Part shown: positions 32,876 through 60,392 of the stretch, piece by piece
Position numbering within the stretch: the stretch's first letter is position 1
Layout of the letters: every line of letters begins with the position of its first letter
Assembly: GCF_004331685.1 (NCBI RefSeq)
Contig: NZ_SJSM01000010.1
Span: 1-64,000 of the forward strand
Reading direction: 5' to 3'
Length of the DNA stretch: 64,000 bases
Source: Pedobacter hiemivivus
Lineage (GTDB): Bacteria; Bacteroidota; Bacteroidia; Sphingobacteriales; Sphingobacteriaceae
The notes under the pieces: generated by a model
Database searches by the model: none
What the model saw: the letters and a program-made list of their open reading frames with translations, nothing else
Told to the model about the DNA's origin: nothing
Program-made: the position numbers and the translations under genes

Positions 32876-32912
32876 ATAGATTCACACTTAGGACATCTAA
32901 GTGTGAATCTAT
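32876..32912 (+). promoter_or_regulatory. 16-bp perfect hairpin ending in the comM start codon
   Basis: Arms 32876-32891 and 32897-32912 are perfectly complementary with a 5-base loop (GACAT). The last two paired bases are the AT of the comM ATG at 32911. In RNA the ribosome-entry region of comM would be folded into this stem. It has no T tract, so it is not a classical terminator of ffh. It could be a translational switch or a small palindromic repeat. Confidence 0.75.
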
Positions 32913-33965
32913 GCTGATAAAAACATATGGCAGCGCCGTCTTTGGCGTAAATGCTTTAACCATTACCATCGAAGTAAGTATAGGCGGGGGCAACAGATAC
33001 CACATTGTTGGTTTGCCCGATAACGCCATCAAAGAAAGCCTGAGAAGGATTGAAAGTGCCATCCAATCGGCTGGACTTAAAATGCCCCGACAAAAGATTG
33101 TCATTAATCTGGCCCCAGCCGACATTCGCAAAGAAGGCTCTGCTTACGACCTTCCAATTGCCATGGGCATTTTGGCGGCCTCAGGGCAAATAGAAAGCGC
33201 AGCGTTAGATAAATACTTTATTATGGGTGAACTGTCCTTAGACGGCGGCTTACAACCTATAAAAGGCGCATTACCCATATCCATCCAGGCCCGAACTGCA
33301 GGCTTTAAAGGTTTTATACTCCCAAAAGACAATTCCAGAGAGGCTGCAATCGTAACTGAACTCCTGGTATATGGCATGTGCAACCTAAGCGAAGTTGTCG
33401 CTTTTTTTAACGGCACAGCACAGCCTGAACCTGTTATTGTCAATACCAGAGATGAATTTTACAATAATGTAAGCAATTACGAGCAGGATTTTTCGGACGT
33501 AAAGGGTCAGGAAAATATAAAAAGAGCATTGGAAATTGCTGCTGCAGGCGGACACAACCTGATCCTTATTGGCCCACCTGGAGCCGGAAAAACCATGCTA
33601 GCTAAGCGCCTGCCCACCATTTTACCACCCTTAAACCTTCAGGAAGCTTTAGAGACCACCAAAATACATTCGGTAGCCGGAAAGCTGAATGCTGCCGAAT
33701 CACTAATGACAGAGCGCCCCTATCGTAGCCCCCATCACACCATTTCGGACATGGCTTTGGTAGGAGGCGGTGCAAACCCACAACCTGGCGAAATCTCCCT
33801 TGCGCACAATGGTGTGTTATTTTTAGATGAATTACCAGAGTTTAAGCGCAGCGTGCTCGAAGTAATGCGCCAACCGCTCGAAGATCGTTCAGTAACCATT
33901 TCACGATCACGTTTGAGCGTTGAGTATCCAGCTAGCTTTATGCTAATTGCCTCAATGAACCCTTG
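32911..33965 (+). pseudogene. comM: comM (yifB) Mg-chelatase-like ATPase, 3' end cut off by element insertion
   Basis: About 351 of an expected 510 or so residues remain. The N-terminal Lon-protease-like fold domain ([22 protein letters not shown]) and the AAA+ part with Walker [23 protein letters not shown] and the arginine-containing [13 protein letters not shown] are present. The frame then reaches FMLIASMNP and stops at TGA. In intact homologues MNP is followed by a CPCG zinc-like segment and the lid domain. ComM is a hexameric branch-migration helicase used in natural transformation; loss of the lid should abolish function. The missing half should lie at the far end of the element. Confidence 0.92.
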
Positions 33966-35428
33966 AAGTCGTGTTGACTTGTTTGCGGAGTGGTGGTAGG
34001 AAGGTAAGCAAGACCCACATTGACAGAGTCCTGCCCGATAGTAATATATTCGGTAACCGTTTCGACTATAGCTCGTTTCTGTGGGAACAACATATTGTGC
34101 CATTCTTCATATAGAGCCTTTGCTTCAGTTAAAACAAATTCACTTGAAGTCATTTGTGCCCGTTTAAGGTCTATTTCAGATTGTAGCTCTGGAACCGATT
34201 TATCAAGTTGATGCACCTGTGTTTCATATGGCTTGTACAGCTCTGCGAGGTGATCCTTGTCTAATTCACCATTCAATCTAAGCGTAACCAGATCATCCAT
34301 TTTCTTACGTAGTTGTGCACGTTTTTTTATAGTTGAGGAAAGCAGCTGCTCCTTTTCTTTTAGTTGGGTGTCTATTTCATCAATGTACATCTCAGGACGC
34401 ATATCATTAAGATACCCTTTTAAAAGTCCTTGGTAAATATCATCCATGTCTTCAACGCTGATATTATTCTTACACACTTTACATGTGAATTTTTTAGCCG
34501 TGCTTGTCACGTACATCGACTTTCCACATGAACATTTCACAAAACCAGCAAGAAGATATTCTGATTTTCTACCAATTTTGGTTCTCTTTGTGGTTTGTTC
34601 ATCGAGAATTGAATTACATTGCTGCCATAAGTGTTCGTCAATGATAGCTGGGCACGGAAGCACGACCCACTCATGTTCTGGTTTTGTTATCCACTGCTTC
34701 CCGTCACCCAGGCTCTTCGTATGGTTTGCAAGACGCTGGCCTTTAGCAGTTGTATCGCGCAACAACCGATCCACTGTAGTATCTGAAAACCGAGCGCCAT
34801 TTCTAGTACGATACCCTAATGAGTTTAACCGGTCGGATGTCGTTTTCTTACGTTGACATTCAAGGAATATCTCGTACATCAATTTGCGAACAGGCGCTTC
34901 TTTCTGATCAATCATCAAAATTTTATCCTGCCACTTATAGCCAAAGCTCGCCTGTCCACCTAACGGCTTACCCATTCTCGCTCGTATTGGTACTGATGCC
35001 AGGACTCTACTTGAAATCTCCTCACGTTCCCACTCAGACAAAGCAGCTAAAATAGTAAACAACAATCTACCTGCTGGAGAACTGGTATCTATCTGTTCTG
35101 CTAACGACACCATGTCTGCATTCGCTTTTCTAAAAATATCCCCGAACTCTAGTAGTTCTTTGGTATTACGCGCTAAACGGGCAAGTTTTGAAAATATTAA
35201 GCCAGTAATACGTCCGCTTCTCAAGTCCTTAAGCATACGTTGTGCTTCGGGATGATCCATAACACTTTTCCCCGATACGGCCTCCAGACGGTATACTTCT
35301 TCAATATGCCAATCCCTGGATTGTACATAGTATCTCGCACGCTGTTCGTGATGTTCTGGACTATCGTCTTTAACTTGCATTTCCGTGGAAACCCTTATCC
35401 ATATACCAACTCGCTTTTTTTCTTCCAT
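33938..35428 (-). CDS. Large serine recombinase (site-specific integrase)
   Basis: 496 residues. The resolvase domain starts at once with [12 protein letters not shown], the catalytic serine being residue 14, followed by the [10 protein letters not shown] and ERxxISSRV segments. A recombinase domain (about 165-290), a zinc ribbon (CSCGK...CKVCK, about 310-335) and a coiled coil (about 345-450) follow, the standard large-serine-integrase order. It probably integrated and excises the element. Its last eight codons and stop are read from the comM side, so its C-terminus is created by integration. No excisionase gene is evident next to it. Confidence 0.92.
33941..33966. other. Left attachment-site junction inside comM
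   Basis: The comM frame follows the family up to the MNP codons (AACCCT) and plausibly TTG, then diverges at 33966 where a Cys codon (TGY) is expected. The crossover must therefore lie at or before 33965 if TTG is shared by both ends. The exact core cannot be set without the right junction, which is outside the window. Confidence 0.7.
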
Positions 35429-51806: not shown

Positions 51807-53009
51807 TTAAAAATCTGGTTTGAAATATTCAGTTTTTCCGGAAACCGGATGGCCGGCATTGTTGATCTTGCTGACAAATGCCCCAAGGGAAAGGCCACTA
51901 GCCAACATATCGGTAACAAAAGCTTCCAGCCCCTGCTGATATGACCCGCTCGCATGAACATAGATTTCCACAGCGCTTTTTTCCGGCTTTTCAGTAGTGT
52001 AGGCCAAATACTGGAAGATGGAGACTTCTACGCCATACACTTCACCTACGGATCCCCTACGTATATAGACCTCCTTAAATCGTCCCCGGTTTTCGGTATT
52101 GTCTAGCTGATTAATGGTAAAGATTTTTTTCTGTTCAGTATCGGTAATGGCAAGTAGTTTGGCGATCTCCTTGTAATTCTCTTTGAACTTGCTTTGATCT
52201 AACAGACATACCGTATCCGAGTTGTTCAGTATGCTGTCCTTAACCACCGTATTACCCAATATATCACCCAATTCTTGGGTGACCACAATCGCCTCTCCCC
52301 AGAATTTGCGTACGGTCTTATATAAATAAAGAATGTAGGAGGCCATTAAAGGTGAGGCTATCGCTTTCCATGCTTCCTCTATAATCAAGGCTTTACGTTG
52401 AGCGGTACGGTGACGCATTTTTTGTAAAAACACGTCCATTATTATCATTGTGACAATTGGAAAAATTTTACTTTCTTTAATCGAATCTATTTCAAAGACA
52501 ATGAAACGTTCGGTTAACAATGAAGTATCAACCTTTTCATTAAGAATTGTTCCATGCTCACCTCCCCTATAAAACTTCTTTAACACGTAACGGTACTCAT
52601 CAAGATCAAAGCTGACCTTTTCGTTCTCTTTGATTTCCCTGATCTTCTCCACTGAAAAGTCATAGAAGGAATCGAAGCTCAGGCTTTTAACACAACCGGC
52701 CTGGCCCTGCATAAAATGCTCGGAATAATATGCGGAGATTACATTGGAAAAAATGGTGTCCTCGACCTGAGAAATTATCCCTTCGGCTCCTTTGAGCAGT
52801 AGTCCGATCAAAGTCTTCAAAAAATCCTTTTTCTCAATATTGTATTCACTTTCACTGATAGCGAAAGGATTCATAGTTATTGGGGTCTGTTCGGTATAAG
52901 TAATGTACTTTCCGCCGAAATAGGTACATAGGCCACTATAGGAATGACCCGTATCAACGATGACCACATCCATATTATACCTCATATATTGCTCAATGAG
53001 CGCATTCAT
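51807..53009 (-). CDS. traG: TraG conjugation ATPase (VirB4-like), C-terminal part
   Basis: 400 residues from the ATG giving MNALIEQYMRYN. It carries the VirB4-type Walker B and downstream ATPase motifs (RKALIIEEAWKAIASPLMASYI; later AIVVTQELGD) but no Walker A, because the codons for SGKSFF lie just upstream of this ATG in the same frame. On its own it cannot hydrolyse ATP. Continuous translation from the upstream half across the 50-nt element would give the whole enzyme. It powers substrate export and pilus assembly in the channel. An independent start is not supported by a recognisable ribosome-binding site. Confidence 0.88.
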   Translation of the reverse strand: MNALIEQYMRYNMDVVIVDTGHSYSGLCTYFGGKYITYTEQTPITMNPFAISESEYNIEKKDFLKTLIGLLLKGAEGIISQVEDTIFSNVISAYYSEHFMQGQAGCVKSLSFDSFYDFSVEKIREIKENEKVSFDLDEYRYVLKKFYRGGEHGTILNEKVDTSLLTERFIVFEIDSIKESKIFPIVTMIIMDVFLQKMRHRTAQRKALIIEEAWKAIASPLMASYILYLYKTVRKFWGEAIVVTQELGDILGNTVVKDSILNNSDTVCLLDQSKFKENYKEIAKLLAITDTEQKKIFTINQLDNTENRGRFKEVYIRRGSVGEVYGVEVSIFQYLAYTTEKPEKSAVEIYVHASGSYQQGLEAFVTDMLASGLSLGAFVSKINNAGHPVSGKTEYFKPDF

Positions 53010-53027
53010 AAAAAAACTTTTTCCTGA

Positions 53028-53077
53028 TCCAATTTGGAGGGTGACCGGGTCATTTAATTAAAAATGACCCGGTCACC
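53028..53077 (-). other. 50-nt hairpin element splitting the traG Walker A motif; candidate translational bypass
   Basis: Read on the minus strand, the glycine codon GGG (53080-53078) is followed by 50 nt ending with the glycine codon GGA (53030-53028). Arms 53062-53078 and 53039-53055 form a perfect 17-bp stem with a 6-base loop. The upstream frame meets TAA (53056-53054) inside the element; the downstream frame resumes with SGKSFF. Removing or skipping exactly 50 nt yields GPSGSGKS. Phage T4 gene 60 also skips 50 nt between two GGA codons with a stem-loop behind take-off. Whether ribosomes bypass, or the element is a simple disruptive insertion, is not shown by sequence. Confidence 0.8.
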
Positions 53078-54340
53078 CCCGGATGGCCCAAGTACAAACT
53101 TGTTGCGATTATTCAGACGTCCTGTGCTCAGATCTGCCGGATCAAAACTTACAGGAATGCCTTGGCGATCAGTGAAACGGATCAAAAAATCCGACTTTTC
53201 ATCTGCCTGCATGGATTCCTTAAAGAAAAAGCATAAGGCGGCATCCGAAGTGGTGAGAAACCAATCATATTTTTTGAGTTCCACCCCATTCCCGGGAAGT
53301 GCAGTTCGGAACAGTTCCATTTGGTTATAGGCATTTTTAGATGAGATGATACCTTGCTGGAAAAGTGCGGCCTCAATAAAATTGGTCGCCCGACTGATCT
53401 TTTCATTGTCTGCACAGACTACAATGTTATAATGGGCGTTGACCAACAATTGATTTTCCCTAGCAACATCAACTAACAACTGATCGATATCTTCCACGCA
53501 TATCATATTGGCTGGATCAGGCACCCCGGAATGCCTCTTGCGTTTCAGCTCCAGTTTGTTCAGGGTTAGCTGCTGTCCAGGTATTTCAATGACTTGATTA
53601 TAAACAATGCAGCAATAGTCAGGTACATGGTGCAGAAACGATAGATTGTCAACAGGGAATTGCCGCAGCTGCTTGCCATCCTGCTTCTCGGTATAGGTGC
53701 CTACCTTCTCGGGTAAGTCAATATCATCGATATTGATCAGGCTGATGCTCTTTATTGCCCTGGAACCGATGCGCAACTGCTGATCCCCGGAGCTTAGGTT
53801 ATTCAGGGTAATATGGGGAGAGGTAAATTCCATACCCAGTATTCGTGATACATAGCGGCGTATTTCTACCTCATTTAGAATATGCGGGCTTAGCCCCGCG
53901 CCACTCAGGAGATCATAAATCTTAGTGGTAAGCTGGTTGAAATCATGGAGTGCCTTTTTATCATAGACATAGAATGCGCCTTTTTTGACCTGCCGGGTAA
54001 TCATCAGACAAGTGTTAATGTCTGTATACTCCCGGTCGTTGAAGTGTTCGTTGTATTTTTGTTGCAGGAATTCATTAGCCGGATCCCCCCGCCAGCTTTT
54101 CCTTGAAAAAACATCCTGTTTCTGGATGATGTGACCTTCGCCTAGAATCTTAATCATGTTCTGCAGCAGATGGTGATATGCTCCATAAGGTTCGGGGTCA
54201 GCTCCGTATTGCATGACCGGGTTGCGGATTTGGAAAAGCATGGAAAAGTCACCTTTGTCGCCATACAATAGGGCTTGGCCTTCATAGGTATCAATACCCG
54301 CATAAGGCATTTTAAATGCCGTCTTTTGATGTGTTTGCAT
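53054..54340 (-). CDS. traG: TraG conjugation ATPase (VirB4-like), N-terminal part
   Basis: 428 residues. The TraG N-terminal domain begins KMPYAGIDTYEGQALLYGDKGDFSMLFQIRNPV and continues through the LNNLSSGDQQLRIG and VYNQVIEIPGQQ segments. It ends NRNKFVLGPSG, the first half of Walker A, then GDRVIFN and stop, the latter residues coming from the inserted element. With the downstream part it would make about 827 residues, the usual TraG length. Codon use does not change at the split. Its start overlaps the DUF4133 gene by 29 bases. Confidence 0.88.
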   Translation of the reverse strand: MQTHQKTAFKMPYAGIDTYEGQALLYGDKGDFSMLFQIRNPVMQYGADPEPYGAYHHLLQNMIKILGEGHIIQKQDVFSRKSWRGDPANEFLQQKYNEHFNDREYTDINTCLMITRQVKKGAFYVYDKKALHDFNQLTTKIYDLLSGAGLSPHILNEVEIRRYVSRILGMEFTSPHITLNNLSSGDQQLRIGSRAIKSISLINIDDIDLPEKVGTYTEKQDGKQLRQFPVDNLSFLHHVPDYCCIVYNQVIEIPGQQLTLNKLELKRKRHSGVPDPANMICVEDIDQLLVDVARENQLLVNAHYNIVVCADNEKISRATNFIEAALFQQGIISSKNAYNQMELFRTALPGNGVELKKYDWFLTTSDAALCFFFKESMQADEKSDFLIRFTDRQGIPVSFDPADLSTGRLNNRNKFVLGPSGGDRVIFN

Positions 54341-54620
54341 AACTCTGTTTTAAGTGGGTGGAATGAATGAATACTCCCCTGGAACGGGTCTTAGAATGCA
54401 GTCCGCTTTTTTGCCGGTAAAAGGTATAGGTTAGCCCTCCCGCAATGGCGGCAATTGTGGCCAATCCGCCGAGGTACATATTGGTAAGCGTACCCAGCAG
54501 ACCGCCTCCCACAAGTCCTAACACTAGTGAACCAATGCCCCAGCCGATAAACTTTCCTTTAAAGCCTTTATATACAAGGGGCTTTTGAAGCCCCTTGTAT
54601 ATGGAAAATTTGCGGATCAT
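54312..54620 (-). CDS. traF: Conjugative transposon protein TraF (DUF4133)
   Basis: 102 residues with two hydrophobic helices (FIGWGIGSLVLGLVGGGLLG and YLGGLATIAAIAGGLTYTFY). The start MIRKFSIYKGLQKPLVYKGFKGKF corresponds to the family pattern INKG..KP..FKG. VirB3-like position before the ATPase. A perfect 15-bp palindrome lies in codons 7-17 of this gene. Overlaps traG by 29 bases. Confidence 0.85.
   Translation of the reverse strand: MIRKFSIYKGLQKPLVYKGFKGKFIGWGIGSLVLGLVGGGLLGTLTNMYLGGLATIAAIAGGLTYTFYRQKSGLHSKTRSRGVFIHSTHLKQSYANTSKDGI
54570..54602 (-). promoter_or_regulatory. 15-bp palindrome inside the 5' coding end of traF
   Basis: ATATACAAGGGGCTT (54570-54584) and its exact complement (54588-54602) surround a 3-base loop, covering the codons for IYKGLQKPLVY. 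The frame is intact and the residues fit the family, so it is not an inserted element. In mRNA a stem this close to the start could slow initiation or regulate traF and traG. Confidence 0.65.
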
Positions 54621-58367: not shown

Positions 58368-58447
58368 CCTTTATTTAGCCTTCCCCCGTCGGGAGGAAGG
58401 CTAAATAAAGGCAAGTGAGTTTTTGGGCCCCCAAAAACACAACTTGC
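58368..58447 (+). promoter_or_regulatory. Two adjacent hairpins, candidate oriT region
   Basis: Arms 58368-58384 and 58395-58411 make a 17-bp stem, and a second nested hairpin occupies 58410-58448 (GGCAAGT with ACTTGCC outside, GTTTTTGGG with CCCAAAAAC inside). They sit directly upstream of mobA and mobB, where oriT of Bacteroidota conjugative elements is usually found. The nick site cannot be determined by sight. The stretch from 58448 to 58590 contains no gene. Confidence 0.5.
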
Positions 58448-60325: not shown

Positions 60326-60392
60326 GGGGGCAAAATGCCCCCTTCGCAGAGTTAGCTGCTCCGTATCGTTTTGATACGGAGCAGCTAACTCT
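60326..60392 (-). terminator. Tandem hairpins between rteC and the primase-like gene
   Basis: A 20-bp perfect stem with a 5-base loop (60348-60367 with 60373-60392) and a 7-bp GC stem (60326-60332 with 60336-60342), each complete. On the minus strand the GC stem is followed by TTTTGCG. They can end transcription from rteC or attenuate the primase-like gene, whose start is 48 bases further. Confidence 0.7.

Follow-up and report, generated by a model that had tools for sequence, protein, structure and literature searches.

The window, a 64,000-nucleotide stretch of Pedobacter hiemivivus DNA (contig NZ_SJSM01000010.1, positions 1 to 64,000, forward strand), carries an integrative conjugative element that encodes a large serine recombinase, an ArdC-like protein, a coupling protein, TraM and a relaxase, together with a NikA-like protein and RteC; the names of its other tra genes are presumed. 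The element splits a Mg_chelatase/ChlI (Pfam) gene, which we take to be comM; its N-terminal half (32911–33966) ends at 33966 and its C-terminal half resumes at ~102020 of the contig, giving the element a length of ~68 kb. The large serine recombinase lies at its left end. In the transfer region (44.8–58.4 kb), 19 of 19 frames (traG halves apart) are matched in the nearest relatives, G109 and G124, three of them in part, one because the compared stretch ends there; within this comparison the region shows no other damage. The genome also encodes two further TraG genes with long open frames.

The interrupted traG gene and its hairpin

The traG gene lies on the minus strand and is broken at its ATP-binding motif (P-loop/Walker A), being open to GPSG and then running into a 50-nt insert and a TAA. 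The N-terminal half, which is VirB4-like (53057–54340; ORF 54340–53054 with stop, 428 aa), is 77–78% identical to uninterrupted relatives and gives a weak, below-cut-off match to Pfam CagE_TrbE_VirB. The minus-strand letters before the break are ...NNRNKFVLGPSG, after which seven further codons (GDRVIFN) are translated up to the TAA at 53056–53054, so that the terminus reads NKFVLGPSG-GDRVIFN*. The C-terminal half (minus strand, 51807–53030) holds the TraG P-loop ATPase domain. Its frame begins GSGKSFFMNALIEQY..., runs from 53030 to 51807 and resumes GSGKS with GGA TCA GGA AAA AGT; its first ATG, at 53009, is downstream of the P-loop. The match to Pfam P-loop_TraG is strong (E 1.1e-111), with an alignment that begins only at profile position 46. 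The sequence-only reading had described a frame open to NKFVLGPSG and closed by a TAA within a frame-shifting 50-nt hairpin segment, and re-reading of the ORFs and folding confirm this.

The insert consists of a perfect 17-bp palindrome with a short tail. As sequence, fold and pair comparison show, the 5′ arm occupies 53062–53078 and the 3′ arm 53039–53055, with the loop TTAATT at 53056–53061, the last base of which starts the N-frame TAA; the 8-nt tail on the 3′ side, TCCAAATT, fills 53031–53038 (all minus strand). The hairpin, with 17 perfect pairs and a 6-nt loop, folds at −32.9 kcal/mol (z −9.2), which 0 of 200 shuffles match, and in a 111-nt context the value is −48.6 kcal/mol (z −6.4). 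Past a 1-nt bulge, two extra pairs complete a 19-pair shape and bring into the stem, at its foot, the GGG codon at 53078–53080, the candidate take-off codon for a ribosomal jump. The candidate landing codon is the GGA at 53028–53030, from which the GSGKS frame continues. That moving from the one to the other skips 50 nt and restores GPSGSGKS had been claimed earlier and is borne out; of ten same-box codon pairs listed, no other brings back GxxxxGK[ST]. At its borders the insert has only GG in common with the flank, and it shows no similarity to the att sites of the conjugative element.

Ten hairpins with perfect arms of at least 13 bp, two of them overlapping, are listed in 144 kb of the contig, and among them the traG hairpin alone was seen to break a gene. 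Elsewhere in the window, a 17-bp hairpin at 58368–58411 lies at or just before the start of the NikA-like gene; in a relative (L095) both arms differ but still largely pair, by eye, so that a conserved structure of an oriT or a leader may be present. A 15-bp hairpin at 54570–54602, within the 5′ part of the coding sequence that precedes traG, is largely kept in two relatives (L095 and L096), and the longest perfect hairpin of the window (20 bp, 60348–60392) is intergenic.

A second member and the uninterrupted genes

A genome of the same class but another family, G723, has a 53-nt hairpin insert in the identical traG P-loop codon and on the same strand (locus L151, 2125–2180, contig C1, minus strand; also L216, 624–679). 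It came to light not by sequence similarity but by checking short traG frames in a survey of 395 genomes of the class, 26 of which gave a match (41 matches in all). Five of these frames are shorter than 700 aa, namely those of the window, G723, G082, G488 and G766, and in the last three the break is not caused by such a hairpin insert. In G723 the N frame closes with NRFILGPSG-GWRAILN* and the C frame picks up again at GSGKSFFTNH; GGG and GGA lie 53 nt apart, start to start, and skipping this gap again gives GPSGSGKS. The exact 50-nt likeness to T4 gene 60 on which the sequence-only reading had remarked thus carries little weight. Close to the C terminus of the G723 gene the frame changes once more, through decay or sequencing error (the genome is a single contig). 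No plasmid record spans the G723 insert.

The two genes are distant, their C halves being ~44% identical, and the inserts have diverged in a manner that keeps their structure. Of the first 42 bases 28 are identical, including the loop and the GGGGGT start, whereas the arms differ and the G723 tail is 11 nt long. The members fold at −37.4 and −39.0 kcal/mol into the same 19-pair shape. All 19 pairs form in both, 11 of them invariant, six changed on both sides and two on one side, and both one-sided changes are U-G on the mRNA strand. As controls, slid pairings give 0–1 double changes, and values as high as those observed arise in 11 of 500 shuffles, a limited comparison with just two sequences. 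In both members GG is repeated at the borders and no bases are lost. A mobile palindrome had been named earlier as an alternative to bypassing, and the G723 insert, which shares fold and codon although its traG is distant, supports the status of the window's insert as an element.

The string GGGCCATCYGG, present in the window as GGGCCATCCGG (53079–53089, minus strand), stands immediately before both insertion points. Of 53 distinct P-loop contexts that are uninterrupted, one has it (p ~0.002 by our own reckoning, for a simple motif chosen post hoc with the pattern already seen). The shared string and the alike borders point to recognition at the DNA level.

Uninterrupted homologues, with which an alignment had been proposed, show the insert to be a pure insertion relative to them. 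In related genomes 28 of 29 TraG loci are open through the P-loop, the exception being L040 (G378), which is frameshifted there; loci L060–L090 are open in 31 of 31 cases, eight of which repeat places of the first set and one of which (L075) is broken elsewhere. Ten traG loci were found on viral contigs, with the P-loop uninterrupted in eight and outside the examined stretch in two. Plasmid records matching the C half number 97. In seven records examined (five without an annotated gene, from among the best 60 of these 97, and two from a search with the G723 insert) the P-loop is uninterrupted in 7/7, and the gene is broken elsewhere in 5/7.

Other broken or unusual traG genes are of different kinds. 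Among at least 150 family matches listed (counted by eye), the window's frame and four others are shorter than 700 aa. Single-base P-loop frameshifts occur in G378 (L094) and G173 (L091), ~9 nt or less from the window's insertion point, and intact copies of the gene exist in many relatives; the G173 frameshift falls within a brief run of Gs, in a genome assembled as one contig, and is perhaps a sequencing error. The G325 gene is broken at about residue 270, and that of G334 has several breaks. In L152 (G766) and L186 (a viral contig), traG fragments start right after the P-loop and are preceded by unrelated sequence; these are not hairpin inserts. In loci L018–L021 and L041 the C half of TraG carries an in-frame insertion of ~80–110 residues. 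In two relatives the Walker B codons of traG are interrupted by group II introns (L025 2520–2666 and L026 2630–2776; Rfam RF02012, 100 and 103 bits); like the hairpins they sit in a conserved motif of the ATPase, but unlike them they match Rfam group II and contain a frame for a reverse transcriptase.

Searches for further copies and comparison with known elements

The palindrome is single-copy in the whole 6.58 Mb of its own genome, as are its arms. A search for the segment in other genomes had been suggested, and among 399 genomes of the family it found the palindrome in none but the window's own, although the diverged member in G723 does extend the insert to another traG. Searches with the window's arms are blind to members that have other arms. 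Within 145 genomes of the genus, a single arm with up to two mismatches matches 59 places outside the window, against ~90 for a reversed control (both counted by eye), and no two of these are less than 28 kb apart on one contig; the ten examined are each single within 1.6 kb and inside a stop-free frame of 116–430 codons. By sequence, no related copies or paired ends were seen elsewhere that would mark an IS end remnant, a MITE or a REP.

A covariance model built from both members (R1) recovers those two at 83 and 77 bits, as expected. Apart from weaker hairpins, two of them in loci that pattern scans had already picked out (L165 and L013), it found no third copy in 322,640 bases from 35 sources or in 800,000 bases made up of 400 kb each of the window's genome and G723; its coverage is ~544 kb of the window's own 6.58 Mb genome and 400 kb of G723. 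Eight palindromes from the genome collection and two from viral contigs have no traG match by tblastn. The L013 palindrome is intergenic, L157 (a viral contig carrying the shared-loop pattern) has its match inside a frame that by eye is terminase-like, and L165 (viral contig) holds a terminator-like hairpin just past the stop of a frame; 15 other viral-contig pattern matches show no such hairpin. Rfam gives nine weak matches in 52500–53600, none near its gathering score.

REP palindromes are described in PMC3733652 as 20–40 bp long, high-copy and extragenic; the traG hairpin shares the palindrome but is intragenic and unrepeated. A closer likeness is to the GC clusters of yeast mitochondria, for which PMC7216626 describes byp-like skipping in VAR1 and endonuclease genes that are often inactivated, and to the byp elements of Magnusiomyces, with 81 insert sites according to PMC5009743. 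These are likewise short GC-rich palindromes within genes, and the window and G723 show that related structured inserts occur in more than a single location; the traG inserts differ in being bacterial, in having a single target motif and in numbering two known members. Within the Bacteroidota, a 29-nt hop in an adhesin gene of Prevotella loescheii is mentioned in PMC5009743 as reported and not followed up; there too a gap is skipped in translation, a shorter one than here.

Silencing, bypassing and other explanations

These observations suggest that the insert is a site-specific, structured and probably mobile element, and not a one-off insertion or an artefact. As our leading account, which we hold tentatively and at a little under an even chance, we propose a small family, of two members, of site-specific structured insertions in traG P-loop codons that silence TraG. 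The hairpin element would enter the P-loop codon after the DNA string GGGCCATCYGG. Since it is too short to encode a protein of its own, it would be moved by a trans-acting protein or copied via gene conversion. No mobilizing protein was identified; an HNH_5 endonuclease-domain protein (E 1e-7) is encoded in the cargo of the conjugative element, beyond the window (contig C2 75671–76756, minus strand; L146), and is a candidate mover. Ku is encoded in the host genome. PMC2988022 notes that mobA is inserted in a functionally critical region. In analogy to mobA and to T4 gene 60, a nuclease that targets the P-loop of traG might account for the two hairpins as well as for the single-base breaks nearby in G378 and G173.

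In the window copy, and this is the least certain step, ribosomes would halt seven codons into the hairpin, so that no TraG is made and the transfer motor is off, although TraG of another element might substitute for the silenced copy. Silencing of this kind would parallel the gene-inactivating GC clusters of yeast mitochondria. We slightly favor it over bypassing because accessory features of T4 gene 60 are missing, the G723 gene has its C-terminal frame change and the genome has two other TraG genes. Against this account stand the count of two members, with no third copy in the stretches searched, and a transfer region that, as far as compared, is undamaged apart from the insert. Moreover, if a selfish element invariably destroyed a transfer gene it would have no future, a point in favor of bypassing over silencing.

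Bypassing, a possible but doubtful alternative, keeps the same site-specific element and makes it phenotypically silent: peptidyl-tRNA-Gly(UCC) would leave GGG and land at GGA, giving full-length TraG. The exact P-loop would be restored over 50 nt in the window and 53 nt in G723, from take-off and landing codons that are the same and in the same positions in both members, with the GGG at the stem foot in both folds. That one tRNA could read both codons, as had been supposed, agrees with the draft genome of the window, which has one Gly-UCC gene, two GCC and no CCC (52 tRNA matches; 17 of 18 extra stretches were scanned, and the 18th repeats a scanned cluster). Both gaps are within 56 nt, the processive range of T4 sliding given in PMC11194080. 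The two one-sided pair changes, being G-U on the mRNA strand, are a weak sign of selection at the RNA level, and the most conserved motif is a typical location of silent elements, as with the group II introns in traG Walker B. The codon match itself is cheap, because ~7% of random insertions offer a protein-restoring synonymous pair (7.5% of 20,000; 6.9% of 6,000), as do 42% with a 2-bp target duplication and 71% with 3 bp.

T4 gene 60 is like the window in having a short frame-breaking gap between Gly codons with the take-off codon in a stem-loop; there the jump is from GGA to GGA over 50 nt, whereas the candidate pair here is GGG/GGA. As accessory features of gene 60, PMC5009743 and PMC11194080 list a stop after take-off, KKYK, a 5′ stem-loop and a 3′ stem-loop. 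Of the likeness first proposed, the one-tRNA codons and the take-off within a stem stand; the stop, KKYK and the 5′ and 3′ structures of gene 60 are missing. Neither a stop nor a known slow codon follows take-off, GGT being next in both members. A 5′ stem-loop before take-off is absent at the window insert (z +0.46; 134 of 200 shuffles as good), the start of its C frame has no significant 3′ structure (z −0.38), and reading of the window sequence shows no SD-like site before the landing GGA. KKYK is absent 25–30 residues upstream, both before GPSG in the window ORF and in as much of the G723 frame as was read, although another nascent peptide could conceivably play its role. Also against bypassing, the insert is in no close relative among those searched, and the G723 gene has its extra frame change, real or a sequencing error. 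The wider proposal that bacterial byp-like hairpins home to traG Walker A codons and persist through GGG-to-GGA ribosome jumps is likewise possible but doubtful. For T4 gene 60 itself, PMC5009743 considers that the gap may be what is left of a decayed intron which gave protection from a homing nuclease.

Palindromes promote deletion, and precise loss would restore the frame in both members, so that occasional exact excision of the DNA, for example as a single strand, might switch TraG on again. The border repeats are just GG, the att ends of the conjugative element are not similar and no recombinase is linked to the insert; we regard such a reversible insertion as improbable. Two separately started polypeptides making up the ATPase are more improbable still: a frame of 15 codons that opens with the ATG at 53053 does end in a TGA overlapping the ATG at 53009 (ATGA), an overlap typical of coupled reinitiation, but GPSGSGKS would be in neither fragment. 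Equally slight is the prospect of a chance likeness between two independent one-off insertions, which the lack of a donor and of a third copy in the searched stretches would fit, given that codon, strand, fold, loop and borders are alike and 28 of the first 42 bases are common. An assembly or library artefact is the least probable of all, for although the genome is a 63-contig draft, the insert lies within a 187-kb contig, a diverged member exists in an independent genome and the insert is no commonly used adapter.

We found no printed description of such traG hairpins in open-licence papers. It is difficult to see what other than a site-specific element would leave two diverged hairpins, with compensatory changes, at one codon of one gene. 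If they are not bypassed, they would be targeted non-coding insertions of a new kind, which turn conjugation motors off. If they are bypassed, full-length TraG would contain the junction peptide NKFVLGPSGSGK, and bypassing of the T4 type would extend to bacterial mobile elements, its generality being directly testable; the hairpins would then represent selfish-element bypassing in bacterial conjugation genes, a counterpart of T4 gene 60 and of yeast byp.
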